Positions 1 through 27,948 of a stretch of DNA of 29,604 nt are shown one piece after another. This DNA comes from a virus: IMG/VR virus record IMGVR_UViG_3300035211_000065, positions 1-29,604 of that record; one strand, given 5' to 3'. A model generated the notes under the pieces. That model ran no database searches. It saw only the letters and a program-made list of their open reading frames with translations, and was not told the DNA's origin. Numbering within the stretch: the stretch's first letter is position 1; each line of letters opens with the position of its first letter. The position numbers and the translations under genes were made by a program.

Positions 1-94
1 GTTTGCCACATCCACCACAATAGTTGGAAATTCCTAGCTCCATTTTAATAGTTTTAATAATACCTAGCTTTAAATTTTCATTAGCGATTATCAT
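1..94 (-). CDS. Small zinc-binding protein, N-terminal part only (cut by window edge)
   Basis: Only the first 31 codons lie in the window. They read MIIANENLKLGII..., ending in a CGGCGK zinc-knuckle-like turn. This matches the start of the 88-residue protein at 1499-1765 (MITANRNLQLGII...YCGGCGK) nearly residue for residue, so the two are paralogues that flank the ThyA-family gene and its small partner. The ATG (94-92) overlaps the TGA of the upstream gene as ATGA, which suggests coupled translation. Function is unknown. By analogy with the paralogue, a second CxxC pair should lie beyond the window edge, giving a four-cysteine zinc ribbon. Confidence 0.75.
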   Translation of the reverse strand, partial: MIIANENLKLGIIKTIKMELGISNYCGGCGK

Positions 95-396
95 ATTAAA
101 TACCTAAAATCTAATAATTTTTGAAAAGTATCTTTTACTTGATGATTATTCAAATCATATTTTTTATACAATTTAAAATTATACTTTTTAAATGTATTAT
201 TATCCATTATAATCTTGTCACCATCGTTAAATATTAATTCAAAGCAGTTACTACTTAATTGATTTATTTGCAATAAAATGCGATGTTGGTTTATTATATC
301 TCTTTCAGTTATTTTAATAGAATTAGGTCTATATGGTTCTAATATAAAACATAATGCCACTAAAAATAAACCTATTATAAAAGTTTGTTTTATCAT
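91..396 (-). CDS. Small membrane-anchored protein of unknown function (101 aa)
   Basis: The protein starts MIKQTFIIGLFLVALCFILEP, one hydrophobic N-terminal segment of about 16 residues after a lysine: a signal anchor or uncleaved signal. The remaining 80 residues are polar and lysine-rich. I chose the ATG at 396 over the one at 423. It forms a TAATG overlap with the TAA of the ThyA-family gene and has TTTGGAG six bases upstream, whereas the 423 start would overlap that gene by 28 bases. Its own TGA overlaps the next ATG (ATGA). I recognise no family. Its position suggests co-expression with the nucleotide-modification gene, but a role cannot be inferred. Confidence 0.7.
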   Translation of the reverse strand: MIKQTFIIGLFLVALCFILEPYRPNSIKITERDIINQHRILLQINQLSSNCFELIFNDGDKIIMDNNTFKKYNFKLYKKYDLNNHQVKDTFQKLLDFRYLI

Positions 397-1400
397 TAAT
401 TCTCCAAATTTCTTTTCTGCCATTCTGCAAATAAAGGATTATCAAATTCTTTAGATTCTATTTCTATCCATTTTGTAGCACAACCTTTTATTAAATCTTT
501 AAATGTTGGATTAAAACCAAGGATAGACTTAACAGAAAACCCAGCTTTTCGTACATCGTTTTCTACTTGTAAAGACTTTTGTACCATTGTATTTAATGGC
601 AAATAGTGTTCATTATTTTCTAATATACAATGGTCACCAATATTTGGATAACTGGCTTCATATTTGTTTAATATTTTTTGTGCTTTTTCAAAGTTTCTTT
701 CGTATAAATGCATACTACCAACTTGATGGATATATGTACCAAGCTGCAAATTCAGTTCTTCTGCAATTATTCTTTGTAAAGTTGTAAAACAAAAAACATC
801 ATAAGGTAAACCAAGCCAAGCGTCATTGCTTCGCATATCAGTTATACAATAAAGTTTATCATTACGAATATAAAATTTTAAAGACAATGTGCAAGGTAAA
901 TCTTTATGACTACCTGCAATAGCATGTATAATATCCCCACTATCCCACATTGTAATTATTGCTTGACGAGTATTTGGTTTTTCTTTTAATAGATGTATAA
1001 GAGCTTCTAATTGATTTTGACCGTTTGGATGGAACATTGCTTCATTTTCATTTTTAAAGCCAGCATTATTTTTCCATCTATGACCATATGCTCCATACGC
1101 TTTTCCATTTTCAGCGAAGTTTTCATAAGAAGGAGCATAAGCTTTTATCATACTTATATCATCCGTCATAGAAAGATACCACAATAATTCAGCACAAGCA
1201 TATGATAAACTAAATTTCCTATCTGGATACCCAATTAAAATATTGTTTAATGGATTTAATAAAATAGCTTGAAAACCAAGTATTTCTTTTGTTTTACCAG
1301 ACCTACTATTTAATTCTTCACCACTATGTATGATATTTAATAAAGTATCATACCATAAATCATTTAAATTATTATAATCATTTTGTATTGTTGGTATCAT
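396..1400 (-). CDS. Thymidylate synthase superfamily enzyme, probable dCMP 5-hydroxymethylase (334 aa)
   Basis: Members transfer a one-carbon group from methylenetetrahydrofolate to C5 of dUMP (ThyA) or dCMP (T4 gp42). Visible motifs are the nucleophile in DLPC at Cys170, the phosphate-binding MRSND (Arg190-Asp193), GLPYD (197-201), and VGSMHLYERNF with His231 and Tyr233. In thymidylate synthases the residue eight after the RSxD aspartate is the uracil-reading Asn (N177 in E. coli, N229 in L. casei). Here it is Asp201, as in T4 dCMP hydroxymethylase (Asp179). The VGSxHxYxRxF string also resembles gp42 more than ThyA (gDxHlYxNH). I therefore infer a cytidylate-directed enzyme. The ATG at 1400 has AAGGA at good spacing and follows structured element E1. 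Some phage ThyA-like proteins with this Asp are untested, so a dUMP methylase cannot be excluded. Confidence 0.85.
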   Translation of the reverse strand: MIPTIQNDYNNLNDLWYDTLLNIIHSGEELNSRSGKTKEILGFQAILLNPLNNILIGYPDRKFSLSYACAELLWYLSMTDDISMIKAYAPSYENFAENGKAYGAYGHRWKNNAGFKNENEAMFHPNGQNQLEALIHLLKEKPNTRQAIITMWDSGDIIHAIAGSHKDLPCTLSLKFYIRNDKLYCITDMRSNDAWLGLPYDVFCFTTLQRIIAEELNLQLGTYIHQVGSMHLYERNFEKAQKILNKYEASYPNIGDHCILENNEHYLPLNTMVQKSLQVENDVRKAGFSVKSILGFNPTFKDLIKGCATKWIEIESKEFDNPLFAEWQKRNLEN

Positions 1401-1420
1401 TTTAATTCCTTAATTAAATT

Positions 1421-1472
1421 TAGTAGGGACTAAGGACTTGCACCTTTACGGCTTTATTCTAGCCCCCTACTA
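1421..1472 (-). promoter_or_regulatory. Element E1: three-way-junction RNA structure before the ThyA-family gene
   Basis: A perfect 8-bp outer stem (TAGTAGGG with CCCTACTA) encloses two hairpins on the minus strand. One is GGCU/AGCC with a 7-nt loop. The other is AAGG/CCUU with loop UGCAAGU, which fits the T-loop consensus of tRNA T-arms. The element occupies the gap between the 88-residue zinc gene and the ThyA-family start, ending about 20 bases before the ATG. There is no U-tract after it, so it is not a normal intrinsic terminator. It may control translation or mRNA processing. Confidence 0.5.
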
Positions 1473-1498
1473 TGCAGGAGTATAGATGAAAAGCTTAA

Positions 1499-1765
1499 TT
1501 ATTCTAACCAAAATTTATTTTTAGGATTATGTACTTTAACTTGTTCTTTTTGATTTTCTTCATTTTTATCTCCATAAATTTTTTGGCAATTTGGGCATAA
1601 ATACAATTTATCCTCCCCTCGTGAATAAGAACCGTAAAGTTCTATTGTCCAATCTGATTCACCGTGATATTGTTTGCCACATCCACCGCAATAATCAGCT
1701 AATCCATACATCATTTTTAAAGTATCAATTATGCCTAATTGTAAATTTCTATTTGCTGTTATCAT
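1499..1765 (-). CDS. Small four-cysteine zinc-ribbon-like protein (88 aa)
   Basis: Two CxxC pairs, YCGGCGK near residue 28 and LCPNCQK near residue 57, make a four-cysteine zinc ribbon of about 35 residues. A charged Lys/Glu tail follows. No catalytic motif is visible. The ATG at 1765 is preceded by GGGG about seven bases upstream. A paralogue begins at 94, on the other side of the ThyA-family gene. The ribbon could bind nucleic acid or a protein partner, but nothing in the sequence decides this. Confidence 0.75.
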   Translation of the reverse strand: MITANRNLQLGIIDTLKMMYGLADYCGGCGKQYHGESDWTIELYGSYSRGEDKLYLCPNCQKIYGDKNEENQKEQVKVHNPKNKFWLE

Positions 1766-1779
1766 TTTATTGCCCCAAT

Positions 1780-2697
1780 TTAATTAGTTTTGATTTTCAT
1801 TATTTGATCGCAAAGATAACGATATTCTTTTTCTATTGATTTTAATCTATTATAGTCTTCAAGTATTCTACAAAGTATTTGATCTATATCTCGTCTATGT
1901 TGCACATCATCAGGATTTATTCCAAGCATTGTTTGCTCGTGCTTACTTAAAAACATATCTATTGTAATTTGTATATTATTACAGTTACAATTGATTGATT
2001 TATTATCAAATTGTTTTTCAATATGTTCTGAAAGTCTATCAACTATATGTGTACCAGAATTACAAGAAGGTTCATTATTTGCGTAACCTATAAATTCTTT
2101 AGCAAGTTCTTTTGAAACTAATATTTGTTCATTTTTATTTTCTATTTTAATTTTGCAACTTTCTGAACATGATTTTAATTCACAATCAAAATCACATAAA
2201 TCAGAATTGCAAATATTTTCATCACCTTCAAAATAAATATTTAATGGACAAATAGGGTGTTTAATTTCTGTATTATCATTTTCTTTATTGCATTCTTCTA
2301 AAATATTTTTATTAGCCAAAACATCTTCAGCCCAAAGTTGTATGTCATTAGACCAGTGATTAGCTAAACAAAGTAGTGACCAAATATTATCAGATAAATT
2401 ATTCTTTTTGCTCGCTTCAATAAAACATTCTTCCCAATCTAATTTATAATCACCTGTACCTGAATCATCATCGAAACATACATAGTAACTTTCTTCATGC
2501 AACTTATGTGCATCTAATATTGTTTGTGCAATTTGTTTTTCATAGTTTATTTCAATAGTTGTACCACCATTCAAAAGTGTTACTCGTTTTGCAGCTTCTT
2601 CTGATGAATTATAATCACTATCTGCATTCCATTTTCCATCTGGTGAATAAAATCCTACTGTCCATAAATTTTTTTCTGTCTTTTTATAAACCCACAT
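1780..2697 (-). CDS. Cysteine-rich phage protein of unknown function (305 aa)
   Basis: The N-terminal ~45 residues (MWVYKKTEKNLWTVGFYSPD, then EEAAKRVTLLNGG) look like a short beta domain ending in a helix, a type often seen at the front of phage accessory proteins. The middle (about 145-180) is rich in cysteines: CPL, ICNSDLCDFDCELKSCSESC. A second pair, CNCN, lies near 235. The C-terminal 60 residues look helical and charged. I place the start at the second ATG (2697). GAAAGG lies exactly six bases before it, while the upstream ATG at 2703 abuts the Shine-Dalgarno sequence. The cysteine cluster may bind metal. Function is unknown. Confidence 0.65.
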   Translation of the reverse strand: MWVYKKTEKNLWTVGFYSPDGKWNADSDYNSSEEAAKRVTLLNGGTTIEINYEKQIAQTILDAHKLHEESYYVCFDDDSGTGDYKLDWEECFIEASKKNNLSDNIWSLLCLANHWSNDIQLWAEDVLANKNILEECNKENDNTEIKHPICPLNIYFEGDENICNSDLCDFDCELKSCSESCKIKIENKNEQILVSKELAKEFIGYANNEPSCNSGTHIVDRLSEHIEKQFDNKSINCNCNNIQITIDMFLSKHEQTMLGINPDDVQHRRDIDQILCRILEDYNRLKSIEKEYRYLCDQIMKIKTN

Positions 2698-2707
2698 TTT
2701 CATCCTT

Positions 2708-3247
2708 TCAATTTACTGGCCAAATATAAGGCAAGTCATTTGGAACTTGCCAATTAAATTTTGAATAGTGTTCTGGCATTTTTCTTAACAAATTTGATTT
2801 ATGACTATCATGAAATTCTTTATTGCCAAACCAAGGAGGATAAAATATTTTTTCTTTAGCTGCAATTAAATCCCATCTTGGAAAATTCCCCCATACATTG
2901 CTGTATAAACACATTGGCATATTATTAGTATGTTTTTGTTTCCAAAGATAAATGCATTCATTATAATAGTATGTTAAACAATCTTCGTATCCTCGCCACA
3001 TTTTTGTACAAGGATGATTATACCATGGAGTAGATTTAATTCCATCACCACTATCTAAAGGTTTAAACCAAAGTAATTTTTTGTATTCTTTACCAGCTTC
3101 ATTCCAACCCCAAATAAAAGCAATTTTTTGGCCTTGATTATTTGCTTTTAATATTTGTAATGCTTCTACTCTTTGTTTGCCTAATCTTTTCCAATCTAAG
3201 CACCAAATAGATAATCCAATATCAGCATAGGGTAAAAATGTTTGCAT
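2708..3247 (-). CDS. Probable pyrimidine-dimer DNA glycosylase-like protein (179 aa)
   Basis: The N-terminus MQTFLPYADI...CLDWKRLGKQRVEALQIL and the later NHPCTKMWRGYEDCLTYYY match my memory of a phage and bacterial family usually annotated as T4 endonuclease V-like (Pyr_excise), whose members read MQTFLPYxDF..LDxxRLGKQRVE and HPAVRMWRGYE. T4 DenV cleaves the glycosyl bond at UV photodimers and nicks the abasic site. The gene follows DNA ligase with a TAATG overlap, which suits a repair pair. I see no strict counterpart of the DenV N-terminal threonine nucleophile, so catalytic activity is an inference from family membership only. Confidence 0.6.
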   Translation of the reverse strand: MQTFLPYADIGLSIWCLDWKRLGKQRVEALQILKANNQGQKIAFIWGWNEAGKEYKKLLWFKPLDSGDGIKSTPWYNHPCTKMWRGYEDCLTYYYNECIYLWKQKHTNNMPMCLYSNVWGNFPRWDLIAAKEKIFYPPWFGNKEFHDSHKSNLLRKMPEHYSKFNWQVPNDLPYIWPVN

Positions 3248-4116
3248 TATTCAAACTGCTCCATTGTACATTGTTTAGGGTCTTTATCATTTCGCCAAAT
3301 AATATTATCATTTCTATCTTTAGCCATTCTTGGGAATTTTAATTTACCATTAGCAGCAATACTATCATAAGCTATAACACAAACTTTTCCAATTAGTTTA
3401 TCCCGTTTTTCTTGTGTATCTAAATATTGGCGGTATTCTAAATCAAAGCCAGAACCAACTTGACCAAAGTCATGTATTTTTCCATCTTTATCATAAACGG
3501 CAATATGAATAGCTTGTAAACCACCATAATGAGTAGAACTAAAAGAACGATGAGTACCAATTACAAAAGCATCAAAAGTTTTAACTGGTTTTAATTTATA
3601 CCAGTTTTTCATATGTTCTTCTTTTAGTACCCAACCCTCCCATTTATTTGATACAGCTAATTCTAACATCGTAGCTTGTCCAGTTTCATCTACGAAACCT
3701 TTTGGAATATAGGTTGGGGGAGCTATACTAAGGCCAATCTTTTTTAGATTAAATAAAATATTATCTAAATCACCATTGCAAAAATTTTTGTTATTCCATA
3801 AAGGAACAGCGAAAAACGTAAGTTGTAGTCTTTTATCAGCATTGTTTAATAAAGTTGGGACGCTCGTTGCTGGGACGCCGGGACAATGTAATTCAGCAAA
3901 AGCAATACTATTTTTAGGCATATTTAAAATTTCTTTTCGTATATGCTTTATTTTTAATAATTTTTCTGTTATATTTTTATTGTTTTTAGTATAACAATAA
4001 ATATCTGGGTAATTAGTAGTATTAATCTTAGTCAAATGACCATCGAGTTTAGGTTGGAACCAATTAACTTTTTGGCCATTATAATTTTTAAATTTTGGAA
4101 ATTCTATTGTTTGCAT
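3247..4116 (-). CDS. ATP-dependent DNA ligase (289 aa)
   Basis: Seals nicks in duplex DNA through an adenylated lysine. Motif I is QPKLDG, with Lys23 as nucleophile. Motif III is AFAELHCPG with Glu75. Motif IV is EGWVLK at 160-165. Motif V is WYKLKPVKTFDA with lysines 174 and 176. The C-terminal part (GQVGSGF to RMAKDRND) fits an OB-fold domain. At 289 residues it is a minimal phage ligase, a little shorter than the T7 enzyme. It overlaps the 55-residue zinc gene upstream by 13 bases and ends in a TAATG overlap with the glycosylase-like gene. It probably serves Okazaki-fragment joining and repair. Confidence 0.92.
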   Translation of the reverse strand: MQTIEFPKFKNYNGQKVNWFQPKLDGHLTKINTTNYPDIYCYTKNNKNITEKLLKIKHIRKEILNMPKNSIAFAELHCPGVPATSVPTLLNNADKRLQLTFFAVPLWNNKNFCNGDLDNILFNLKKIGLSIAPPTYIPKGFVDETGQATMLELAVSNKWEGWVLKEEHMKNWYKLKPVKTFDAFVIGTHRSFSSTHYGGLQAIHIAVYDKDGKIHDFGQVGSGFDLEYRQYLDTQEKRDKLIGKVCVIAYDSIAANGKLKFPRMAKDRNDNIIWRNDKDPKQCTMEQFE

Positions 4117-4271
4117 GGTTTCTTTTCATCCATTTCAATTATACAATCATCTAAAAACTTTTCAGTTTGTTCTGCGAATATTTTATAGCAATCTACACAA
4201 CGTATTGTTGATTGCTGCAAGCTTTTATTATCAACAGTTAATTCTTTATTACAATCTATACATAAATTCAT
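4104..4271 (-). CDS. Micro zinc-ribbon protein (55 aa)
   Basis: The translation begins MNLCIDCNKELTV and continues to IRCVDCYKIF, so two CxxC pairs are separated by about 17 residues, followed by an acidic helical tail ending KKPCKQ. The ATG overlaps the TGA of the upstream micro-gene as ATGA, and the 3' end runs 13 bases into the ligase gene. The tight packing on both sides supports a real gene. It resembles small phage-encoded zinc ribbons of unknown role. Confidence 0.7.
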   Translation of the reverse strand: MNLCIDCNKELTVDNKSLQQSTIRCVDCYKIFAEQTEKFLDDCIIEMDEKKPCKQ

Positions 4272-4378
4272 TTTTTGTAATTTTTAAATAATTTATCAAT
4301 TTTATCACTAAGAGAACAAGTATGATTTATATGCAAAATAGTAAAAATTAAATTTATTATTAATAAAGTTTTAATCAT
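4268..4378 (-). CDS. Micro-protein with one hydrophobic segment (36 aa)
   Basis: It starts MIKTLLIINLIFTILHI, a 15-residue hydrophobic stretch, followed by a short lysine-rich tail. GAAAGGATAAAA precedes the ATG, a strong Shine-Dalgarno sequence directly downstream of hairpin E2. The stop overlaps the next ATG (ATGA). It is probably a single-pass inner-membrane peptide. No family is recognised. Confidence 0.6.
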   Translation of the reverse strand: MIKTLLIINLIFTILHINHTCSLSDKIDKLFKNYKK

Positions 4379-4404
4379 TTTTATCCTTTCAAATAAATAA
4401 CTGA

Positions 4405-4442
4405 AGCAGGACTTACTTGCTAATTTAGTTTTCAGTCCTGCT
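4405..4442 (-). promoter_or_regulatory. Element E2: 9-bp perfect stem before a micro-gene
   Basis: AGCAGGACT (4405-4413) and AGTCCTGCT (4434-4442) are perfect inverted arms around a 20-nt loop. On the minus strand the stem is followed by an A/T linker, then GAAAGGATAAAA and ATG. This is the same order of parts as in E3, E5 and E6. There is no U-tract. It probably acts in the mRNA 5' region of the next gene, for stability, processing or translation. Confidence 0.5.
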
Positions 4443-4464
4443 CAGTCGGGTGAAGGAAGAAATA

Positions 4465-4587
4465 TTATAACACTCCTATCCCAGCCTTCGGAGTTTCCAA
4501 TAATTCGCCGTTAGTGTACTGGGCGCGATCCAACCATTGCCAATTTTGATAGCCAATCATTACTAATTCTTGTTGACTTATTGGCAT
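4465..4587 (-). CDS. Micro-protein of unknown function (40 aa)
   Basis: The translation begins MPISQQELVMIGYQNWQWLD and ends KAGIGVL: soluble, aromatic-rich and not repetitive. It starts within 10 bases of the end of the upstream coiled-coil gene. Its ATG overlaps the outer base of a 9-bp hairpin, and I see no clear Shine-Dalgarno sequence, so initiation probably depends on translation of the upstream gene. I recognise no family. Composition favours a real gene, but confidence is moderate. Confidence 0.5.
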   Translation of the reverse strand: MPISQQELVMIGYQNWQWLDRAQYTNGELLETPKAGIGVL

Positions 4588-4609
4588 TAGCGGATTAAGC
4601 ATCCGCTAA
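4587..4609 (-). promoter_or_regulatory. Hairpin spanning a stop codon and the next start
   Basis: TTAGCGGAT and ATCCGCTAA form a 9-bp stem with a 5-nt loop. The stem includes the last codons and stop of the 132-residue gene and the first base of the ATG of the 40-residue gene. A ribosome finishing the upstream gene would melt it, so it is a plausible coupling switch. Confidence 0.45.
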
Positions 4610-4993
4610 CAATTCTTCAAGCTCTTCTAAACTAATATTACCACCACTAAGTTCTTTTTCAAGTTCAGCAACTTGAGCCTTTAAGTTTTTGAGCTTCCGC
4701 ACTTTTTGCTTTTTAACATCAGTGGTATCTTTTATATCATTGATGCGAGTTTTCAGTTCATCTAAATGTTTATTTAATGCAATAAGTTTTTCTGGGGCTT
4801 CAATAAATTGTGCTAATACAGCTTCTTTCTTTTCTTCTATTTTAGCAATTTCTTCATCGTGGACTGCAATTATTTCGTTGAAATGATTTAGAATAAATTC
4901 ATAATGTTTTATTAAAGCAGCGTCAACTTTGCATGTTTCTTTTAAATCAGCAAGTTTATCCGCCTTTGTTGGTCTGTAACTTCCTATTGCCAT
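4595..4993 (-). CDS. Coiled-coil protein of unknown function (132 aa)
   Basis: Almost the whole protein is heptad-like, Glu/Lys-rich helix, for example HDEEIAKIEEKKEAVLAQ near residue 45 and LKNLKAQVAELEKEL near 105. An acidic C-terminus follows (SLEELEELLADA). There are no cysteines clustered for metal and no membrane segment. The ATG has AAAGGGTGAA upstream and follows hairpin E3. It is second in the operon behind promoter Pa. It could be a scaffold or a host-protein binder, but no homologue comes to mind. Confidence 0.7.
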   Translation of the reverse strand: MAIGSYRPTKADKLADLKETCKVDAALIKHYEFILNHFNEIIAVHDEEIAKIEEKKEAVLAQFIEAPEKLIALNKHLDELKTRINDIKDTTDVKKQKVRKLKNLKAQVAELEKELSGGNISLEELEELLADA

Positions 4994-5030
4994 TTCTTCA
5001 CCCTTTCAATTTAATCTTAAACCCATAAGT

Positions 5031-5056
5031 CTTAGCCGTTTTATTTAACGGCTAAG
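5031..5056 (-). promoter_or_regulatory. Element E3: 10-bp perfect hairpin with conserved flanks
   Basis: CTTAGCCGTT and AACGGCTAAG make a 10-bp stem with a 6-nt loop. On the minus strand it is followed by ACTTATGGGTTTAA, then TTGAAAGGGTGAA and ATG. The same flanks surround E6 at 23118-23166, whose arms differ at four positions with the pairing kept. This is direct evidence that the paired RNA (or DNA cruciform) is selected. Confidence 0.6.
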
Positions 5057-5078
5057 TATTGCGGATTTAACTGATCAA

Positions 5079-5549
5079 TTAGATATCATCAACATTTGCA
5101 CCATCGGCCTTAAGCTGCTCTTCCAGCAACTTAGCAGCTTCACGGAGGCGGGCGAGCTTCTGTGCCTTTTTGCGAGTTTCCTCATCGCCAAACTTTTCGA
5201 TATTGGCAGCCTTCTTTTCCTTTTCCTCGGCACTCTTAACAAGTATGGCAGCTTTTACGCGAGCGACATACGCCTGATAACGAATGTAAGTTACCATTGA
5301 AGCAAAATGTCCCTTCTTTAATGGTAAATGTCTACGAGGATCATAACCTGCATAGACTACGCTATCGCCTTCCTTAATCGGCATAGGTACAGCGATCAAA
5401 AGTCCATCCTTATTTACTGCTGAAACAACCTTCCCATCCTTGTCGCGGCACTTTGCATTTTCCATTACAAAATCAACCTTGCCCTTGTCTTTCTTTTCCT
5501 TTTTACTACCGCTATCCTTATTTGGATTAACCTTATTAACTTTTGCCAT
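5079..5549 (-). CDS. Lysine-rich, GC-richer protein, probably highly expressed (156 aa)
   Basis: The first 30 residues are mostly Lys/Asp/Ser (KDSGSKKEKKDKGK). A compact middle follows (LLIAVPMPIKEGDSVVYAGYDPRRHLPLKKGHFASM), then an Ala/Lys/Glu helix to the end (AEEKEKKAANIEKF, ARLREAAKLLEEQL). Codon use includes many G/C-ending codons, unlike its A/T-ending neighbours. This fits high expression or a separate origin. It is the first gene behind promoter Pa and has a strong GAGGAG site. The basic N-terminus could bind nucleic acid. I recognise no family. Confidence 0.75.
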   Translation of the reverse strand: MAKVNKVNPNKDSGSKKEKKDKGKVDFVMENAKCRDKDGKVVSAVNKDGLLIAVPMPIKEGDSVVYAGYDPRRHLPLKKGHFASMVTYIRYQAYVARVKAAILVKSAEEKEKKAANIEKFGDEETRKKAQKLARLREAAKLLEEQLKADGANVDDI

Positions 5550-5602
5550 TTTTGAGTTCTCCTCTAAAATTTTAATTACGTTTTATTACCAACTATATTT
5601 AT

Positions 5603-5630
5603 AGTATAACACATTCTAAATAAATTGCAA
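5603..5630 (-). promoter_or_regulatory. Promoter Pa (sigma70-like)
   Basis: Minus-strand TTGCAA (5630-5625), 16-bp spacer, TATACT (5608-5603) preceded by TGT, an extended -10. It sits in the gap before the 5549 gene and shares its form with Pb-Pf. Confidence 0.65.
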
Positions 5631-5648
5631 GCGAAAAATTATTTTTCA

Positions 5649-5969
5649 TTAAGTTTTTTTACGCTGCTCAGCATGTATTTCATCCATGCGTTTTGCGATC
5701 ATCTTTAAATCAATAAAATTTCTAAAAGCTATGCCAGACTTACTATCCCAGTCATGATCCATTAGAAGAATAGCCCCAAGACAATCGTACTCATTTTTCT
5801 TGCCAGCATGTCGTTTAAGAATATTTTTTGTTCTTTTAAATATTGCAACTTCGCTATGATCCATATTAATTAAACAAGATTGACGCTGATAATATTTGTA
5901 AACTTTTTGGTCAACTTCGTTGCTTGTTTTGGTTTTGCTTATTGTGTTGTTTAGTTTATTATCTGCCAT
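5649..5969 (-). CDS. Phage protein of unknown function (106 aa)
   Basis: Small, basic and mostly helical in look, with a Ser/Thr/Asn-rich first 18 residues and a body containing KYYQRQSCLINMDHSEVAIF. No metal-binding or catalytic motif stands out. The ATG has GGGGTGAAAA directly upstream. It is the second gene behind promoter Pb and is followed by promoter Pa, so it ends a short two-gene unit. Confidence 0.65.
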   Translation of the reverse strand: MADNKLNNTISKTKTSNEVDQKVYKYYQRQSCLINMDHSEVAIFKRTKNILKRHAGKKNEYDCLGAILLMDHDWDSKSGIAFRNFIDLKMIAKRMDEIHAEQRKKT

Positions 5970-6025
5970 TTTTCACCCCAGATTTTATCTTATAATTTTT
6001 ATTGGAGTTAAATAAATATTACAAG

Positions 6026-6130
6026 TTAATCATTAGGATAACATATGGGACAATTAGGCTCATGTATTACAATACCAGAAATTATATAAGCATTGCAGCC
6101 TTCACATTCATTTGTTTTATTAGTTGCCAT
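6026..6130 (-). CDS. Micro zinc-ribbon protein (34 aa)
   Basis: The translation has ECEGCNAYIISG followed by EPNCPICYPND, giving CxxC, about 16 residues, CxxC: a minimal four-cysteine zinc ribbon. AAAGGGTGAAAA precedes the ATG at the spacing used throughout this genome. It is the first gene after promoter Pb. Similar tiny ribbons are common in phage early regions, mostly without known function. Confidence 0.65.
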   Translation of the reverse strand: MATNKTNECEGCNAYIISGIVIHEPNCPICYPND

Positions 6131-6172
6131 TTTTCACCCTTTAATTTAACCCCATTAACTATAACTATATAA

Positions 6173-6201
6173 AGTATAAACCATTTCTTTAATAAAAGCA
6201 A
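6173..6201 (-). promoter_or_regulatory. Promoter Pb (sigma70-like)
   Basis: Minus-strand TTGCTT (6201-6196), 17-bp spacer, TATACT (6178-6173). The upstream TTTTAT is shared with Pc and Pd. It drives the 34- and 106-residue genes. Confidence 0.65.
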
Positions 6202-6241
6202 ATAAAAACTTGGCATTTTGTAAATATTTTTAAGATTTTTT

Positions 6242-6254
6242 ACGCCCGATAATA
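6242..6254 (-). repeat. 13-nt repeat upstream of promoter Pb
   Basis: ACGCCCGATAATA occurs here and at 23514-23526. Both copies lie 31-41 bp upstream of the -35 box of a promoter of the same type (Pb, Pc). The spacing suits an activator or operator site. Confidence 0.45.
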
Positions 6255-6325
6255 TGCTTATTTTTATGCTAATTTATAACTTATATAAGCTAGTTTAAGA
6301 GCCGTTAATTTAAGGTAATATAAGC

Positions 6326-6384
6326 AGGCACTTTTGCCCTTAAATAAGCCGTTCGGGGCTTAGGCGGTCGACAGGCGAGCCGTT
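6326..6384. repeat. 59-nt GC-rich direct repeat, copy R1
   Basis: Identical over 59 bases to 23866-23924 (R2). It is about 58 % GC (34 of 59) in a strongly AT-rich genome. It contains a 6-bp stem TAAGCC/GGCTTA around GTTCGG, a small stem GGCA/TGCC, and the palindrome GTCGAC. AGCCGTT occurs twice inside and once more about 47 bases to the left. Both copies sit 60-75 bases after the stop of a large gene and upstream of a promoter. Neither is followed by a strong U-tract. It may be a replication or packaging site, a processed RNA, or a protein-dependent terminator. Confidence 0.8.
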
Positions 6385-6396
6385 AATGGCTTTATT

Positions 6397-6464
6397 ACTA
6401 TATTTATATAGTATATATTAAAAAATTAACTATATAAATATAGTTAACGTATATAGTTAACGTA
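6397..6464. repeat. AT-rich inverted repeat and 13-nt tandem duplication at the polymerase 3' end
   Basis: ACTATATTTATATAGT (6397-6412) and its exact reverse complement (6429-6444) form a 16-bp stem with a 16-nt loop. The unit TATAGTTAACGTA is repeated twice in tandem (6439-6451, 6452-6464), covering the polymerase stop codon. Between this and the 6130 start, the stretch holds only R1, the 13-nt repeat and promoter Pb. Confidence 0.6.
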
Positions 6465-8472
6465 TTTTGCCAGCTATAAATTTACCATCAGCGGTTTTTA
6501 TTACTTTATCGCCAGCAGCTTCAGCCCAATTGTTAGGGCTTATACCCAAGCCTGTTAAAATAGGTACTTTGAAATTTATCGTAGTTGTTTCTAACATATT
6601 ACAAATATAATTATGGAGTTTTGATTCATACAAAACTTCTAATGGAACACGACTTAATAATTCGTCATGTACATTTGCTGCTAATTTAATGCCCCATTTT
6701 TTAGATTCACTATTAAATCTTGGTGAAATTGCAACCATTCTTTCTTTCATAATATCAGCAGCACAACTTTGTATTATAGAATTAAAAGCTTTTCTTGCAA
6801 CTCTTCCGGGTAGATATCTTCTACGACCATAAGCATTAAAAACAAAACCACGAACAGCAGCCGTATTTTTAGCAGCGTCTGAAGTTGTTTTTATTTCTGG
6901 AAATCTATCGTGATATTTGTTCCAACAATATTCAGCATGATTTCTACAAAGTTCTACAAGTTTTTCTTTTCTTAAATTATTTTCTAATTTATTACTCGCA
7001 ATCAATTCCGCAACTTTAGCTGTCATCATTTCAATTATATGGTCATTAGACATTAATTGTGCAGTAACACCATTCTTTCCTTGCCCATAAGCCATACCAA
7101 AATTAAGTTGTTTAGCAGGTTTTCTTATTATTTGTATTAAATCAGCGACCCATTGATGGTAATCTGTTTCTGGATTTTCGTTATATGCTTTTATAGCTTC
7201 TTCTATTTTTGCATAATGCACAATTAGTCGATATTCAATTTGTGAATAATCATTAGAAATAAACCCTTCGCCTTCAAAAGGATGTAATAATACTTTTGAA
7301 TCTTCATTTTGTTGTTGTGAATTTGGTTTACTACTGGATAACCTACCAGTACGAACGGCTTGATTATAGTTTGGATGTATTATGCCATCTACATTGAGTT
7401 CTAAAAAAGTATCTAAATATAAACTTTTAAACTGTTGTTTTATTCTGTATTCGCATATTAAATTTACTATTTCTTTTATTTTAGGATCACTAACAACTAG
7501 TGGATGATTTCTATATAAAGCCATTGCATCTTTATCAAAACTTGGACGACCAGTATCATAATATCTTCCATCTTTCTTTTCTGATATAGTTTTTAAAATC
7601 GGTAAATTTAATTGATTTATAAAAATATCATATATGCAATTATTCGAATTTATAAATTCACGCCCAGTTAAATCTGCTATCCTAGTAGCATTATCTATCA
7701 TTATTCGCAAAGCTTTTAAAGATGCTTTTTTGCATTCGATTTCATCTACTCTTAAGCCATCTTTTTCTATATCGAATAGAACAGAAGTTAAATTTATTTC
7801 AGTTTCTACTAATCTTTTGACAGCTTCCGCCTGTTCTATTTTTTTAGTTTCTGCGATTCTAGCTTCTAATTTTGACTGCAAGAATCTGTATAATTCACGA
7901 TTCATACCAATATCATCATTAGCATATTCACCTAGAATATCTATGGGCACATCGGCGTAAGATTTTGATTTTATACTTTTTAAATAAGCTGCAACCCTAT
8001 CTTTTGCACTAACATCATAGTCCAGCCAATCTTTACATACAGGTTTTAAGCCATAGCCTATTCTATCACTATAATATAATTTACATTGTGTTAATGTATC
8101 AATTAATCTGCACTTAAATTCTACATTATCACCTACTGCAAACATTAAAGCATCAAATTTAATATTATGATTTATCCAATCCTTGCAAGATTGTAGAATA
8201 TCTTGTATCCAATTCATAACATTGGATACTGGTAAATTGTTAGAATTAGGAGCAGTATGTCGAATTGGTATATACCAGCGTTCTCTTATATCATCAGCGG
8301 TTATACTAAATCCGCAGATTCTATCACCTTTCCATGGATATAAACCACCTAAATCTTTATGCTGAAATACTCTTTTAGATTCTATATCGCAAAATATTTC
8401 TTTACGATTTTTTAAATTAGGCAATTCAGATAAAGATTCAATTATATTTGAATTGTTTGGTAAATGTATCAT
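6457..8472 (-). CDS. Family A DNA polymerase with 3'-5' exonuclease (671 aa)
   Basis: Replicative phage polymerase. Exonuclease motifs: Exo I FCDIES (Asp29, Glu31), Exo II NIKFDALM, Exo III YANDDIGMNREL. Polymerase domain: TGRLSSSKPNSQQQ, motif A SNDYSQIEYR, motif B RKPAKQLNFGMAYG, motif C VHDEL (His602-Glu604). In motif B the position equivalent to E. coli Phe762 is Phe. No 5'-3' exonuclease domain is present, and the length matches T7-like enzymes. The ATG overlaps the methylase stop as TAATG. It is the last gene of the operon starting at promoter Pe and is followed by the AT-rich repeats and R1. Confidence 0.95.
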   Translation of the reverse strand: MIHLPNNSNIIESLSELPNLKNRKEIFCDIESKRVFQHKDLGGLYPWKGDRICGFSITADDIRERWYIPIRHTAPNSNNLPVSNVMNWIQDILQSCKDWINHNIKFDALMFAVGDNVEFKCRLIDTLTQCKLYYSDRIGYGLKPVCKDWLDYDVSAKDRVAAYLKSIKSKSYADVPIDILGEYANDDIGMNRELYRFLQSKLEARIAETKKIEQAEAVKRLVETEINLTSVLFDIEKDGLRVDEIECKKASLKALRIMIDNATRIADLTGREFINSNNCIYDIFINQLNLPILKTISEKKDGRYYDTGRPSFDKDAMALYRNHPLVVSDPKIKEIVNLICEYRIKQQFKSLYLDTFLELNVDGIIHPNYNQAVRTGRLSSSKPNSQQQNEDSKVLLHPFEGEGFISNDYSQIEYRLIVHYAKIEEAIKAYNENPETDYHQWVADLIQIIRKPAKQLNFGMAYGQGKNGVTAQLMSNDHIIEMMTAKVAELIASNKLENNLRKEKLVELCRNHAEYCWNKYHDRFPEIKTTSDAAKNTAAVRGFVFNAYGRRRYLPGRVARKAFNSIIQSCAADIMKERMVAISPRFNSESKKWGIKLAANVHDELLSRVPLEVLYESKLHNYICNMLETTTINFKVPILTGLGISPNNWAEAAGDKVIKTADGKFIAGKIR

Positions 8473-9170
8473 TACTTGTCATTTGTCCAAATAGCTTCAA
8501 TATTCTTGCCAATTGAATGATATTGTCCAATATTTAAATGCAAAAATTCAAAAGGTAACCAATCAGCTAATAAATCTTCACATACTATTATTTGACCTTT
8601 ACGTTCTTTGCACCACTTTCCAAGTTCAGTATAATTTATACTATCACAATTATAATTATATCTAGACCCTATTCCGTTACTATAAGGTGGGTCAATAAAC
8701 CAAGTAGCTTCAATATTATTGGCTAAACTATAATCACCATGAATAATTTTCCAATGCCTTATTTTGTATAAATTATCTGCAATTCTTTTTCTACCATTCC
8801 CATTATTAGCTGACCATCTATTTCTATTTCTATTTCCTATTTTTCTTTTAGCAAAATCATTATTACTTCTAAAACAGCATCCTCGAAAGCTTTCTAAAGA
8901 AATAAGATTTTTTATCGCCTTATTTTCAATATCTATAATTTCATTATATTTATATAGAGGCAGATTGATTATTATATCATAAGTTGCTTTATTTATCAGC
9001 CAATCCCATATATCAAATATAGCTTTATCCTTTTCAATTAATATAACTTGTTTATCCCAATAATGGAACGCATACTGAGCAGAACCGGCGAATGGCTCAA
9101 TTATAATATCATATTTTGGTTTGGGGTAATATTTTACTAATTTAGATTTTGAGCCAAAATAACTAAACAT
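8472..9170 (-). CDS. DNA adenine N6-methyltransferase, D12 (Dam) class (232 aa)
   Basis: Methylates adenine N6 with S-adenosylmethionine. The AdoMet-binding loop is EPFAGSAQYAFHY near residue 30, after the FSYFGSKSKL motif typical of D12 enzymes. The catalytic motif is FIDPPYSNGIG. The start is the ATG at 9170, which gives a TAATG overlap with the deaminase gene. The 15 bases upstream are open only through a TTG. There is no cognate endonuclease nearby, so it is an orphan methylase, probably protecting phage DNA or marking replicated DNA. Recognition sequence cannot be read from the protein. Confidence 0.88.
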   Translation of the reverse strand: MFSYFGSKSKLVKYYPKPKYDIIIEPFAGSAQYAFHYWDKQVILIEKDKAIFDIWDWLINKATYDIIINLPLYKYNEIIDIENKAIKNLISLESFRGCCFRSNNDFAKRKIGNRNRNRWSANNGNGRKRIADNLYKIRHWKIIHGDYSLANNIEATWFIDPPYSNGIGSRYNYNCDSINYTELGKWCKERKGQIIVCEDLLADWLPFEFLHLNIGQYHSIGKNIEAIWTNDK

Positions 9171-9700
9171 TAGATATTCAACCAATCTTTTAAAAGTGTA
9201 ATACCAGTTTCAGGATTTTCAATTAATTCTTTAGTCCAATGAGGCATTGTTCTATCTAGCATAGCCTTTGCGTTTCGGGGGTGCTCAGCCCAATAAGGGG
9301 CTAATATTTCATAAGCTACTGCATCTATAACTCCAGAATCAATTATTATATTAGCACAATTCACACAAGAAGAATACGTTGTTAGTAAAATTGTTTTTAT
9401 TTTATTTTCTTTTTTATTTAGTCTATGTCTGCTTCTAAATAATAAATAATTCATTATAGCTCGTGGCTCTGCATGACTACAACCACAAGCACCTACAATA
9501 TTTTGGCATTCATTTTTATTTCCAGATGGCCCATTTATTGCAAAAGTTTTATTTATTATTTCTAATGTTGTATCAATTTCTATTATAGCACATCCAACAG
9601 CTTTTCTTTTACAAACTTGATTTTTTTCTGCTTGTAATTTTATATCTTTAAAAGTTTGCAATATATTTAATCTTAAAAATTTTATAAATTTTTCGTTCAT
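9170..9700 (-). CDS. dCMP deaminase family protein (176 aa)
   Basis: Deaminates dCMP to dUMP, feeding dTMP synthesis. The zinc/catalytic motif is CSHAEPRA (His-Ala-Glu), and the second motif is YSSCVNCANIIIDSG, where Ser replaces the Pro of the usual PCxxC. The start at 9700 has AGGGG upstream and a TAATG overlap with the kinase gene. The longer frame to 9745 would lie inside that gene. Its presence beside a probable dCMP hydroxymethylase recalls T4, which uses both enzymes. A distinct deaminase substrate, such as a modified nucleotide, cannot be excluded. Confidence 0.87.
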   Translation of the reverse strand: MNEKFIKFLRLNILQTFKDIKLQAEKNQVCKRKAVGCAIIEIDTTLEIINKTFAINGPSGNKNECQNIVGACGCSHAEPRAIMNYLLFRSRHRLNKKENKIKTILLTTYSSCVNCANIIIDSGVIDAVAYEILAPYWAEHPRNAKAMLDRTMPHWTKELIENPETGITLLKDWLNI

Positions 9701-10242
9701 TATATAATGTCCCCTCTTTCTAATGTAAATCTTCTTGATATCCATTCATCTATAATTTCATTTATATTTGAATCATTTACATAGTTGGGATTTTCAAAAT
9801 TTATTGGCAAAACATTAAAAGCAAAATCACAATCACCTTTATTTGCATAATTTTTAAAGAAATTATTACCATCGCACATTGTTTGGACATCTAATAAATT
9901 TCCGCGAGTATCATTTTCTATAAGTGATTTATATTTTTGTTCATCATTAGCATATAATACAACTATAATCCCACCAACACTTCTTATCCAACTATTTATA
10001 ATAGATAAACGCTGAGGCCATATTTTATTTTTATGATAGGCTAATCCACCAAGATGAAATCTATCTTGAACAGCATAAGGATTTAATAATTTTTTATAAT
10101 CCAAAAAGAAATCAAATATCTCTTCATTAGGTCTTGTCATCCAGCTATAAATAGCAAGAAAGCCTTTTTCCGAAAGTCTTCTTACTATAGTCTTAGCTAA
10201 AGTTGTTTTACCTAAACAATCACTGCCTTCTATCAATAACAT
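9700..10242 (-). CDS. Deoxynucleoside monophosphate kinase, thymidylate-kinase-like (180 aa)
   Basis: The P-loop is EGSDCLGKTTLAK at residues 5-17, followed by a helix and the DRFHLGGLAYHK motif near residue 60 that matches the nucleotide-binding DRxxxSxxAY of thymidylate kinases. It phosphorylates a dNMP to the diphosphate. In phages with modified bases this enzyme (T4 gp1 in function) acts on the hydroxymethylated monophosphate. It lies between the MazG-like and deaminase genes in the replication operon. AGGAAAAAAGAA precedes the ATG. Substrate choice is inferred from context only. Confidence 0.75.
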   Translation of the reverse strand: MLLIEGSDCLGKTTLAKTIVRRLSEKGFLAIYSWMTRPNEEIFDFFLDYKKLLNPYAVQDRFHLGGLAYHKNKIWPQRLSIINSWIRSVGGIIVVLYANDEQKYKSLIENDTRGNLLDVQTMCDGNNFFKNYANKGDCDFAFNVLPINFENPNYVNDSNINEIIDEWISRRFTLERGDII

Positions 10243-10270
10243 TTCTTTTTTCCTAATAAATTAAAATTGT

Positions 10271-10771
10271 TTAAATTTGATTTTCGTCTTTTAATCTTTT
10301 TCTACCACTTATTAAAATTTCATTAAAATTTGGCGGGCTAAAATTTTCACCTTTATCTCTAAGTCTTGGGTTATTTTTAATATCTCTTGGAGCTTTAGTA
10401 TTATTTGACCTACATACTTCTTGAATTATTTCTTTTGCTGGGAGAATATAATCCACAGCAATCCCATTAACAACATAACATAAATCACCAAAGCCATCAC
10501 AAGTACCATTTAATTCACCTTTGTTTATATGCAGCATCATTTCAGCAGTTTCTTCAAGTATTAAATGAAAACGCCTAAATTTTTTCATAGTATAAATATC
10601 ATTTTTGACACTTCTTGAATAAATATAGCAAAATTTAGAAATAAAAATTATTAATTTACAAAATATAATCATTATAAATTTTGAAAATCTTTTATTAGGT
10701 TTTAAAGGTAAATTGCAAGGTATTTTATGTTTACGGTGAAATTCATAAATTGATTTTTGTGTTTCTATCAT
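10271..10771 (-). CDS. MazG-like nucleotide pyrophosphohydrolase (166 aa)
   Basis: An all-alpha NTP pyrophosphohydrolase that converts a dNTP to dNMP and pyrophosphate. Metal ligands are seen in LILEETAEMM (Glu73, Glu74, Glu77) and CDGFGDLCYVVNGIAVDY (Asp92, Asp96), followed by the family-typical EVCRSNNTK. Residues 26-60 hold an unusual basic and hydrophobic insert (KFIMIIFCKLIIFISKF) before the metal site, which could touch the membrane. The start at 10771 has GGAG eight bases upstream. With a probable dCMP hydroxymethylase in the genome, a dCTPase role like T4 gp56 is possible. Confidence 0.78.
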   Translation of the reverse strand: MIETQKSIYEFHRKHKIPCNLPLKPNKRFSKFIMIIFCKLIIFISKFCYIYSRSVKNDIYTMKKFRRFHLILEETAEMMLHINKGELNGTCDGFGDLCYVVNGIAVDYILPAKEIIQEVCRSNNTKAPRDIKNNPRLRDKGENFSPPNFNEILISGRKRLKDENQI

Positions 10772-10772
10772 A

Positions 10773-12119
10773 TTAAAACTCCGCATCTTCATATATATTA
10801 TTTTGTTCTACTAAACTTCTATCATTTAATAATGATTTTAATAATTTTGTAAATCCCGGTGATTTCATATATGGGAATCCATTTCTAAACAAAGCTCTTT
10901 TACGAACTAAATCTCCAAGTAATTTTTGGGCTTGATCTTGACCAATATCACACCAATCCATTAGGCTATTTCTATCTATATCGTCAGCATGCAATAATTG
11001 TTCAATTAAATCTTTTGGATACTTTGTTTCTTTTAAACGCTTAGTTAAAAAACTTACATCATTATCTCTTAATTCTTTTGAAAATTTATCATCATAAGAA
11101 AACTCTTTATAACCACAAGATTCACTAGAGTATATTTTAGTTAAAAAATTATAAGCATATTGTAGATGTATTTTGCAAACCAATAAATTATTATAATTAT
11201 TTTTTTCAGTATTAAAAGTTAAACCAGCAATAGCAATGGCCATTTTAGTTAGTTTATGTCTCATAGAACCTGAGTCAATTAATGGTATAGTTTCAGTAAA
11301 TTCTTTATATAATTTTTTAGATAATTCCAAACATAATTCTCTAAAACCACTTTCAAATTTTATTTGATCAACAGAACGAGTCCATATCCATAATATTAAT
11401 TTTTTCCAAGCTTCACTAGTGTATTTGGGGTTTTTTACTAAACTATTTTTTATAAATTTATCTCTAAGATCTTCATCCATTTCAGCTTTAGAAACTATCA
11501 TAGCAAAATCTAAACGACGAACATCTTCTAATTGCCCCATTAATTCTTTTATTATTTTAATACCGAAATCATAAGAAGCTACATCTTTCTTGCTACTACG
11601 CGGATTAGAAAGCATTATTAATCTCGTTCTTGCTGGTGTAACTCGACTAACCATACCCATTATTTCAGCTTCTTTTTTAGAACGCATGCTTCTTAAATTT
11701 GCTATAATTTCTTCAGGAGCACCTTTCAGTTCCTCTAATATAACTAATTGCCTATCGTTCAATGGTATAGTCCCCCATTTTATAAACCATTTACCCTTAG
11801 AACCCATAGGTTCTAATCCACCTAATAATCCAGTTCTTTTGGCATTACCACAATCATGAATAACACCCAAATTAAAAAAATTAACTAAACTTTCTGCAAT
11901 TTTTGATTTACCTTGTGAGCTATCCCCAGCAATTAAACAATCTATAATCCCATAGCATATTTCGCCATCTAGATTATAATGCAATGCTGAGCAATAAGCT
12001 ATCAAAAAAGCTAGATGCAAATCTTTTCTCAAAAATATTTTAGTAACATTATTTGATAAATCTTTACAAATATCATCTATCTTTTTTGATAACAATTCAT
12101 ATTTTTCGCTATCAATCAT
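10773..12119 (-). CDS. MCM-like AAA+ replicative helicase core (448 aa)
   Basis: Unwinds DNA at the fork as a ring ATPase. Walker A is GDSSQGKS (65-72), Walker B LVILEEL (125-131), sensor 1 LSNPR (Asn172), and DVRRLDFAMIV (199-209) matches the arginine-finger region RFDLxFxL of MCM proteins. The NLRSMRSKKEAEIMG segment corresponds to the MCM presensor hairpin region. The protein begins only about 60 residues before Walker A, so the OB-fold and zinc N-terminal half of cellular MCMs is absent. It overlaps the primase gene by 8 bases. MCM-type helicases are uncommon in phages, which mostly use DnaB-like enzymes. An archaeal-type AAA+ alternative is possible. Confidence 0.72.
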   Translation of the reverse strand: MIDSEKYELLSKKIDDICKDLSNNVTKIFLRKDLHLAFLIAYCSALHYNLDGEICYGIIDCLIAGDSSQGKSKIAESLVNFFNLGVIHDCGNAKRTGLLGGLEPMGSKGKWFIKWGTIPLNDRQLVILEELKGAPEEIIANLRSMRSKKEAEIMGMVSRVTPARTRLIMLSNPRSSKKDVASYDFGIKIIKELMGQLEDVRRLDFAMIVSKAEMDEDLRDKFIKNSLVKNPKYTSEAWKKLILWIWTRSVDQIKFESGFRELCLELSKKLYKEFTETIPLIDSGSMRHKLTKMAIAIAGLTFNTEKNNYNNLLVCKIHLQYAYNFLTKIYSSESCGYKEFSYDDKFSKELRDNDVSFLTKRLKETKYPKDLIEQLLHADDIDRNSLMDWCDIGQDQAQKLLGDLVRKRALFRNGFPYMKSPGFTKLLKSLLNDRSLVEQNNIYEDAEF

Positions 12120-13704: not shown

Positions 13705-13716
13705 TATAAGAAAAAG

Positions 13717-13792
13717 AAATTGGTGACAGAACTATCAACTTGGGTAGGATAGCTCACCATAAAATTTCACAATTGTCAACTGTCACCAATTT
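13717..13792. promoter_or_regulatory. Element E4: 13-bp perfect inverted repeat between two replication genes
   Basis: AAATTGGTGACAG (13717-13729) and CTGTCACCAATTT (13780-13792) are perfect arms around 50 bases. An inner 5-bp pair (CTATC/GATAG) can form. On the plus strand the right arm is followed by TGAAAGGAGTTAAAA and ATG, the stem + Shine-Dalgarno order seen in E2, E3, E5 and E6 on the minus strand. This element therefore looks inverted relative to the genes around it. Confidence 0.6.
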
Positions 13793-13825
13793 TGAAAGGA
13801 GTTAAAAATGAAAAGAAATTTCTAA

Positions 13826-14695: not shown

Positions 14696-14741
14696 GTTTT
14701 AGTCTCCTCAATTAATTATTATGTTTATTTTGTAGTTTAAT

Positions 14742-14770: not shown

Positions 14771-14806
14771 ATACAAAATTTAATTTTATTTATACTAAAT
14801 AGTTAA

Positions 14807-15409: not shown

Positions 15410-15410
15410 T

Positions 15411-22477: not shown

Positions 22478-22840
22478 TTAATATGCTAATGATTCATGCC
22501 AAACAATTCTATCAGCAGCAATTAAACCTTTAACATGGACAGCTTTAGTATTACGCAAAGCTTCTAATCCGAATTGTGCTAAATAATAATCCTCCTTAAT
22601 TTTAAATTTTTTAGTGTGTCCTTGATTAAGCACATAATGTAAAGTCTCATGAATTATTGTTTGATACTGTTTTTCTATAGGCTGTATTAATAATCTTGTA
22701 TTAATATACAATTTACACCGTGTAGTATAAATTACAGCCCAATAAGTTTTAACAGTTTTAAACTTTACATCTAAATTATTTTTACAACCTTCCTGTTCAC
22801 ATACAAAATTTATAATATCTTTTATTTCTTGCAGATCCAT
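22478..22840 (-). CDS. HEXXH metallopeptidase-like protein (120 aa)
   Basis: The zinc-protease motif HETLH (64-68) lies in YQTIIHETLHYVLNQGH, preceded by an edge strand KLYINTRLL, the minimal SprT/minigluzincin arrangement of strand, helix, HEXXH. A third ligand is not obvious; His75 of NQGH or a later residue could serve. At 120 residues it is a stripped-down domain. Phage members are usually hypothetical; cleavage of a host or DNA-bound protein is a guess. It follows E7 and has AAGGGGGTGAAAA upstream. Confidence 0.65.
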   Translation of the reverse strand: MDLQEIKDIINFVCEQEGCKNNLDVKFKTVKTYWAVIYTTRCKLYINTRLLIQPIEKQYQTIIHETLHYVLNQGHTKKFKIKEDYYLAQFGLEALRNTKAVHVKGLIAADRIVWHESLAY

Positions 22841-22869
22841 TTTTCACCCCCTTCATAAAACCAATATGT

Positions 22870-22928
22870 CCGGAAAATTGCTTCAACTAATCAAAATTAA
22901 ATAATTCTAATTATCCACACTTTTCCGG
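22870..22928 (-). promoter_or_regulatory. Element E7: 8-bp stem before the metallopeptidase-like gene
   Basis: CCGGAAAA (22870-22877) and TTTTCCGG (22921-22928) pair around 43 AT-rich bases. On the minus strand the stem is followed by ACATATTGGTTTTA, which matches the ACTTATGGGTTTAA after E3 and E6 at 11 of 14 positions, then a GGGGGTGAAAA ribosome site. Confidence 0.5.
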
Positions 22929-22939
22929 TAATACCGATT

Positions 22940-23083
22940 TTACGATTCGCTTTTTGTTTTATGTTCCTTCCATTTCTTTCCACAACACTCACATTTTTCC
23001 CAAGGAAAATGAAGACCTACAACAGTCTTAATAGCTACACAAGCCATTAAAACAAACGCAATTGTTCTTAATATTTCCAGCAT
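22940..23083 (-). CDS. Micro-protein with membrane segment and CxCC motif (47 aa)
   Basis: Translation: MLEILRTIAFVLMACVAI, a 17-residue hydrophobic helix, then HFPWEKCECCGKKWKEH. The cytoplasmic tail has CECC, which could bind metal. GAAAGGGTGAAA precedes the ATG immediately after element E6. A conserved ribosome site, a clear membrane helix and tight packing support a real gene. No family is recognised. Confidence 0.65.
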   Translation of the reverse strand: MLEILRTIAFVLMACVAIKTVVGLHFPWEKCECCGKKWKEHKTKSES

Positions 23084-23117
23084 TTTCACCCTTTCAAATT
23101 TTGTTAAACCCATAAGT

Positions 23118-23166
23118 CTTGGCTAGTTACCGGTCCGGCAATTGGTCGGCCTTATCACTAGCCAAG
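23118..23166 (-). promoter_or_regulatory. Element E6: 10-bp stem, paralogue of E3
   Basis: CTTGGCTAGT (23118-23127) and ACTAGCCAAG (23157-23166) pair around a GC-rich 29-base loop. The outside sequence TTAAACCCATAAGT is identical to that beside E3. The arms differ from E3 (CTTAGCCGTT/AACGGCTAAG) at four positions with full compensation. Confidence 0.6.
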
Positions 23167-23177
23167 TATTACAGCTT

Positions 23178-23318
23178 TTACAAATTAAAAAGGTAACAAC
23201 CAACATCAACTTTTAACTGAGCAATTTTACGCGACTCATGCTTTTTCTTGCTCAAACTCAAAACTTTTAACAAAAAGGCAGCAAAAGTCACCAAAACAAT
23301 ATTAGTTGCAGTAAACAT
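23178..23318 (-). CDS. Micro-protein with N-terminal membrane segment (46 aa)
   Basis: Translation: MFTATNIVLVTFAAFLLKVL, then a strongly basic SLSKKKHESRK and a short tail DVGCYLFNL. This is a type of single-pass membrane peptide with positive cytoplasmic flank. GAAAGGGTAAAAA precedes the ATG and element E5 lies just upstream. First gene after promoter Pc. No family is recognised. Confidence 0.6.
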   Translation of the reverse strand: MFTATNIVLVTFAAFLLKVLSLSKKKHESRKIAQLKVDVGCYLFNL

Positions 23319-27947: not shown

Positions 27948-27948
27948 A

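Follow-up and report, generated by a model that had tools for sequence, protein, structure and literature searches.

A family of intercistronic phage RNA hairpins found at the same gene boundaries as type II hammerhead ribozymes

Three intergenic hairpins of the phage DNA described here, E3, E6 and E7, are members of a single RNA family (referred to below as E-type elements) which is new to Rfam 15. With nine further copies from four related phage records, identified using covariance models, the family comprises 12 members. Their occurrence at the same gene boundaries as hammerheads suggests that both do one job, the splitting of a long message into separately protected gene messages. We propose, with confidence and doubt in about equal measure, that E-type elements are cis-acting intercistronic cassettes for mRNA processing and end protection, interchangeable with hammerheads and with RNase III as the probable cutter.

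This addresses the question of why clusters of hammerhead ribozymes are present between phage genes. In related phages, what is found at one and the same junction can be a hammerhead, a conserved hairpin unrelated to it, or a hairpin resembling a terminator. The natural substitution of an E-type element by a hammerhead makes the processing hypothesis directly testable and, if E-type elements are cut at the equivalent place, phage hammerheads would be one of several interchangeable devices setting message ends at gene boundaries.

The window and its genes

The window, that is the entire stretch of DNA analysed, has 29,604 bases and corresponds to a complete IMG/VR record. Its main genes are all on the minus strand and include, in addition to a DNA polymerase (Table 1), those for an SNF2-type helicase, a primase-like protein and a tail protein. 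No tRNA gene was found in the window. Two records, L003 (99.9% identity over 6117-12664) and L061 (99.96% over 22068-29604), represent the same phage, and the 13 kb of the L061 contig that extend beyond the window include no additional E-type copy.

Table 1. E-type elements, associated Shine-Dalgarno (SD)-like sequences and neighbouring genes in the window
Feature	Position	Strand	Remarks
E3	5017..5070	minus	E-type hairpin; shuffle z -6.8
E3 outer helix	5059-5070 with 5017-5028	minus	
E3 internal loop	5057-5058 / 5029-5030	minus	UA / AC
E3 inner helix	5031-5040 with 5047-5056	minus	loop 5041-5046
E6	23104..23180	minus	E-type hairpin, 29-nt apical insert; z -3.4
E7	22856..22942	minus	E-type hairpin, 43-nt apical insert; z -4.3
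GAAAGGG	5001..5007	minus	SD-like, between E3 and next gene
GAAAGGG	23089..23095	minus	SD-like, between E6 and next gene
GAAGGGGG	22847..22854	minus	SD-like, between E7 and next gene
Gene before E3	5079..5549	minus	156-aa Lys-rich protein; homologues kept in relatives
Gene after E3	4595..4993	minus	132 aa
Small gene before E6	23178..23318	minus	46 aa, C-terminus DVGCYLFNL
Small gene between E6 and E7	22940..23083	minus	47 aa counted from the ATG at 23083
Gene after E7	22478..22840	minus	SprT/YgjP-like metallopeptidase; weak Pfam matches, below cutoff
Family A DNA polymerase	6457-8472	minus	

Structure of the E-type hairpins

E3, E6 and E7 each form one long hairpin of 20 or more base pairs, with about 12 positions in the outer helix and 8-10 bp in the inner one. 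The two helices are separated by a symmetric 2x2 internal loop, 5'-UA / 5'-AC, whose inner closing pair is C-G. In E3, the outer helix is formed by TTAAATCCGCAA and TTATGGGTTTAA with one C-A mismatch; that of E6 has two mismatches, and all 12 positions of that of E7 are paired. Minimum free energies of the gaps, expressed as z-scores against dinucleotide shuffles (Table 1), can be compared with those of coding windows used as a control (mean 0.1, sd 1.0). Predicted stabilities over the family range from -17 to -38 kcal/mol.

The initial annotation, made from the sequence of this phage, had noted common outer flanks in E3 and E6 and a close variant in E7. The two elements do share ACTTATGGGTTTAA, but this is more than a flank: it is the 3' strand of the outer helix and pairs upstream of the inner stem. 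E7 is related as proposed and is to be regarded as a full member rather than a variant. The inner arms are CTTAGCCGTT/AACGGCTAAG in E3 (5031-5056, loop of 6) and CTTGGCTAGT/ACTAGCCAAG in E6 (23118-23166, loop of 29). They differ at four positions (A-U/G-C, C-G/U-A, G-C/A-U and U-A/G-C) and, as had been observed, every change is compensated on the opposite arm. TTAAACCCATAAGT occurs exactly twice in the window.

Searches of the window and of the family members against Rfam 15 returned nothing over the gathering cutoff and only chance-level matches. A resemblance of E3 to twister-sister (GCAA/AUGGGU) was considered and rejected: alignment of the outer helix reduces the conserved loop to UA/AC, and there is no second conserved loop.

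Members in related phages

A first covariance model, R1, built from E3, E6 and E7, matches the related record L012 at 15519, 15054 and 13855 (E 9e-9 to 8e-7), L011 at 11123 (E 3e-4) and L018 at 13069 (E 0.003), all of these E-values being rough. A second model, R2, adds a copy at 3041 in L018 (61.7 bits) and one at 242 in L015 (33 bits), where the A-U pair at the loop edge is replaced by G-C. Two copies in L096 were obtained by combining a degenerate-core scan of IMG/VR with the model. The first of these (862-936) has the same gene context as E6 and the second (630-706) matches E7; the pair is arranged around a small gene in the E6/E7 order. The small protein encoded before the L096 element ends in DVGCYVFDL, compared to DVGCYLFNL before E6, and in both cases the stop codon lies inside the 5' outer strand, as it also does for E7.

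Since aligned stems of any unrelated hairpins will show "compensatory" changes, homology requires support from outside the varying pairs. This is provided by the invariant loop with its closing pair, by 87.5% identity over 40 nt between the 3' parts of E3 and E6, and by the gene context in common with L096. In the alignment of all 12 members, both sides have changed in 17 of the 20 pairs. Paired cells amount to 92.5%, compared to 71.6% in shuffled alignments and at most 47% when the partner is slid, and there are 46 double-changed cells against 12.7 in shuffles. A covariance model from related phages was the check that the initial annotation itself had put forward, and the nine additional copies and the strong covariation bear out its proposal of one homologous family under structural selection.

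Members were recognised, on the sense strand, by an outer helix, a 2x2 loop with UA (or CA)/AC closed by C-G, and 8 bp or more in the inner helix. These are found in E3, E6, E7 and the nine other copies, the weakest being that at 13069 in L018, which has AG in place of AC. The members possess no conserved apical loop or pseudoknot. A definition by the order stem, SD and ATG, as originally suggested, proved too broad: the window's remaining intergenic hairpins (those at 4405-4442, 13730-13790 and 23338-23411 among them) share with E-type elements only a stem followed by an SD and have no match to the E-type models.

All 12 members have the orientation of the genes around them, with far lower scores on the reverse strand, so selection acts on the RNA. 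An AT-rich genome with many weak inverted repeats could be thought to generate such structures by chance, or to harbour an element that is palindromic at the DNA level, but this explanation is opposed by the shuffle z-scores of -3.4 to -6.8 and in practice refuted by model matches in other phages, by the covariation and by the uniform sense orientation with its strand-specific score.

Over the 1.03 Mb searched with the final model, only the 12 members, which are recovered by construction, and one reverse-strand echo fall below E 0.5. Neither some 80 other contigs preselected by the core pattern nor 63 core-pattern matches in a genome collection yielded an E-type member. A scan of IMG/VR for the identical core, AATAC..GACTTATGGGTTTAA, retrieved only the same phage (L061) and three chance matches, and the matches from degenerate-core IMG/VR scans that were not previously known, L096 apart, fail the model. 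A third model, R3, run with filters off, gave partial matches to the long-loop members and no additions. The first descriptor search (exact GAC..T, strict loops) missed copies in relatives which were later found by the covariance model. At 247-291 in L006, there is an apparent decayed E-type element whose 3' half is like that of the copy at 3041 in L018 and whose 5' strand is partly lost.

Placement at gene boundaries and exchange with hammerheads

Relative to the upstream stop codon, the 12 members start at -4 to +28 nt, in most cases at -4 to +8, and they end 15-37 nt before the next ATG. They sit inside polycistronic stretches. Promoter-like sequences (TTGCTT-17-TATACT, identified by eye) occur in several long gaps and none adjoins an E-type element, so the elements are probably intercistronic. 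The initial annotation had viewed them as 5' leaders; a pure leader role does not agree with their position tight against the upstream stop codon.

The elements can be duplicated as cassettes. In G004 (L012/L015), a 109-bp E-type cassette occurs twice, with 99% identity, before two different genes, and spans a point adjacent to the stop codon, the hairpin, a spacer, the SD and ATG GCG AAA, up to the third codon. Similarly, L026 has two copies, 100% identical, of a 69-nt hammerhead cassette that takes in the SD region. Cassettes of both kinds support the earlier idea of a repeatedly duplicated element.

The junction of the window that carries E3 can be compared with that between homologues of 5079-5549 and 4595-4993 in relatives, all metagenomic, which gives a small sample of about 10 independent phages at one junction (L042 is matched by the upstream gene only). 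Four relatives, L004/L005, L006, L012 and L042, carry type II hammerhead cores there. Those of L006 (47.9 bits against a cutoff of 37 for Hammerhead_II, RF02276), G004 (L012) and G008 (L042) exceed the Rfam cutoff, which is passed three times in G008 and is passed in G012 as well; the hammerheads of L005, L008 and L026/L030/L033, which are below this cutoff or unscored, are assigned on the basis of core motifs and helices. L018 has an E-type element at this junction, L047 has two very large tandem palindromic hairpins (15979-16301; about -124 kcal/mol for 338 nt), and in L008, L025/L037 and L040 the junction is occupied by strong hairpins that have a U-rich tail and lack the UA/AC core. In all relatives examined, either a strong hairpin or a hammerhead core is present at the 3' junction of the 5079-5549 homologue; a broader search for this gene yielded no new genomes.

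At the junction preceding the same gene, L012 has an E-type element, and L006/L007 and L008 have hammerhead cores. Since both types occur among relatives at these two neighbouring junctions, they replace each other there. They can also alternate within one operon, as in L012/L015, where an E-type element (13855) is followed by a hammerhead (14443) and two further E-type elements (15054 and 15519). Hammerheads in the relatives are placed in a similar way to E-type elements and generally lie 3-20 nt after a stop codon and 22-53 nt before an ATG, with one outlier, L040. In the more distant relatives L026, L030 and L033, one to four tandem type II hammerhead-like motifs, some of them identical, are located between small genes.

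Stop-codon placement and replacement by hammerheads at the same junctions point to cutting or capping at gene boundaries. Phage hammerhead clusters have been proposed to process long transcripts (Perreault et al. 2011, PMC3088659), and the exchange described here is independent support for such a common boundary role.

Comparison with known systems and possible function

The type II hammerheads (RF02276) of phage and prophage operons resemble E-type elements in beginning at the upstream stop codon and lying ahead of an SD, in their use of the same gene junctions in relatives, in being present in several copies per operon and in duplicating as cassettes. In contrast to them, E-type elements lack both the CUGAUGA/GAAA core and a three-way junction, and have no match to RF02276. 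A type II hammerhead core (CUGAUGA, GAAA and UH, with stems I and III closed) is absent from the minus strand of the window. When a type II hammerhead cleaves, the upstream product keeps the stem III hairpin at its 3' end and the downstream product begins with the stem I hairpin at its 5' end.

A second comparison is with the intercistronic RNase III sites of T7 (R0.3, R0.5, R1.1 and others), for which we folded the T7 sequence. These too are hairpins in a phage message, in which an internal loop separates an inner helix of about 10 bp from a lower helix, and RNase III cuts them in or near the internal loop. E-type elements have the general shape of such a site, being intercistronic hairpins that reach some 20 bp or more and include an internal loop, but show no sequence homology to it, and differ by their symmetric conserved UA/AC loop and by cassette duplication. 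Because the E-type model has no match in T7 (positions 1-20000), the analogy is one of shape and position and cutting by RNase III is putative. The literature on RNase III sites in phage provided nothing directly usable.

In the model that we favour, the hairpin would fold directly behind the upstream stop codon, be recognised as a duplex of roughly two turns with a fixed internal loop, and then be cleaved, with host RNase III as the leading candidate, as at the T7 sites. After a cut in or near the internal loop, as after hammerhead cleavage, the upstream message would be left with a hairpin immediately behind its stop codon, shielding its 3' end, and the downstream message would gain a 5' end of its own just ahead of the SD. 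Related phages would achieve the same at the same boundaries with type II hammerheads, or would end the transcript at terminator-like hairpins. The computations establish the family and its structure, its sense orientation, where it lies relative to stop codons, the duplication of cassettes and the exchange with hammerhead cores; we infer cleavage, the identity of the cutter and the benefit of protection.

The hairpins could instead remain uncut in the message, blocking 3' exonucleases and separating the translation of neighbouring genes with no specific cleavage. Their position at the stop codon, their high stability and the terminator-like hairpins of other relatives at the same junction agree with this; we nevertheless consider it rather unlikely, since by itself it accounts neither for the conserved internal loop nor for the fact that self-cleaving ribozymes take the place of the hairpins at two adjacent junctions. 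Given that some relatives have U-tailed hairpins at the same junction, termination, or protection of the 3' end with no cut, could be part of the common role. The U-tailed hairpins of L008, L025, L037 and L040 resemble E-type elements in strength and in their position after the 5079-5549 homologue, and differ by the U-rich tail and the lack of a UA/AC core. That the E-type hairpins themselves are intrinsic terminators is highly improbable: they are stable and follow stop codons, and U-tails do occur at the equivalent place in some relatives, but a U-run at the usual distance follows none of the 12 members, in line with the absence of a terminator U-tract already remarked in the initial annotation.

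Short internal loops that are conserved while the helices around them vary are typical of protein sites, and the UA/AC loop could equally be a protein-binding site. As an operator, it would be read by a phage or host protein controlling translation of the next gene or message stability, and the duplicated cassette does include the SD and start codon. This seems unlikely to us, as the SD and ATG are mostly outside the hairpin, 15-37 nt away, the genes downstream of E-type elements are unrelated to each other, and hammerheads occupy the same sites. It is distinctly unlikely, too, that E-type elements are undescribed self-sufficient RNA-cutting or nuclease-directing elements, swapped one for one with hammerheads as modular cassettes; in its strongest form this may mean a minimal new ribozyme class or a site for a phage-encoded nuclease. 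Conserved unpaired bases, together with sites, placement and cassette behaviour identical to those of type II hammerheads, would suit a new class of small self-cleaving ribozyme. We judge such a class improbable because the conserved unpaired core is limited to the 2x2 loop, smaller, to our knowledge, than the core of any natural ribozyme, and because members do without a conserved apical loop or pseudoknot.

Other features of the window

Several further structures were noted on the minus strand. The hairpin at 13730-13790, between genes 13826-14695 and 12112-13704, has a 12-bp stem and a U-rich tail, and its junction carries a strong hairpin of different sequence, often U-tailed, in the relatives examined. 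Immediately before gene 23178-23318, and outside the E-type family, an 11-bp A/T-rich stem, AAAATAAAAGG/CCTTTTATTTT (23338-23411), encloses about 50 nt with GC-rich parts. Upstream of gene 396-1400, an element at 1421-1472 is closed by 8 bp and includes a T-arm-like hairpin (AAGG-TGCAAGT-CCTT) and a second arm of 4 bp; its shape is tRNA-like without an anticodon arm, it has no match in Rfam and its minimum free energy is not unusual.

A 66-bp direct repeat, 97% identical, lies within two long gaps without coding sequence, one 3' of the polymerase gene (6326-6391) and the other 3' of the tail gene (23866-23931). Its neighbours are also repeated (6222-6272/23494-23544 and 23454-23502/23735-23783) and contain the promoter-like TTGCTT-17-TATACT. 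Together, these repeats look like a duplicated control region.
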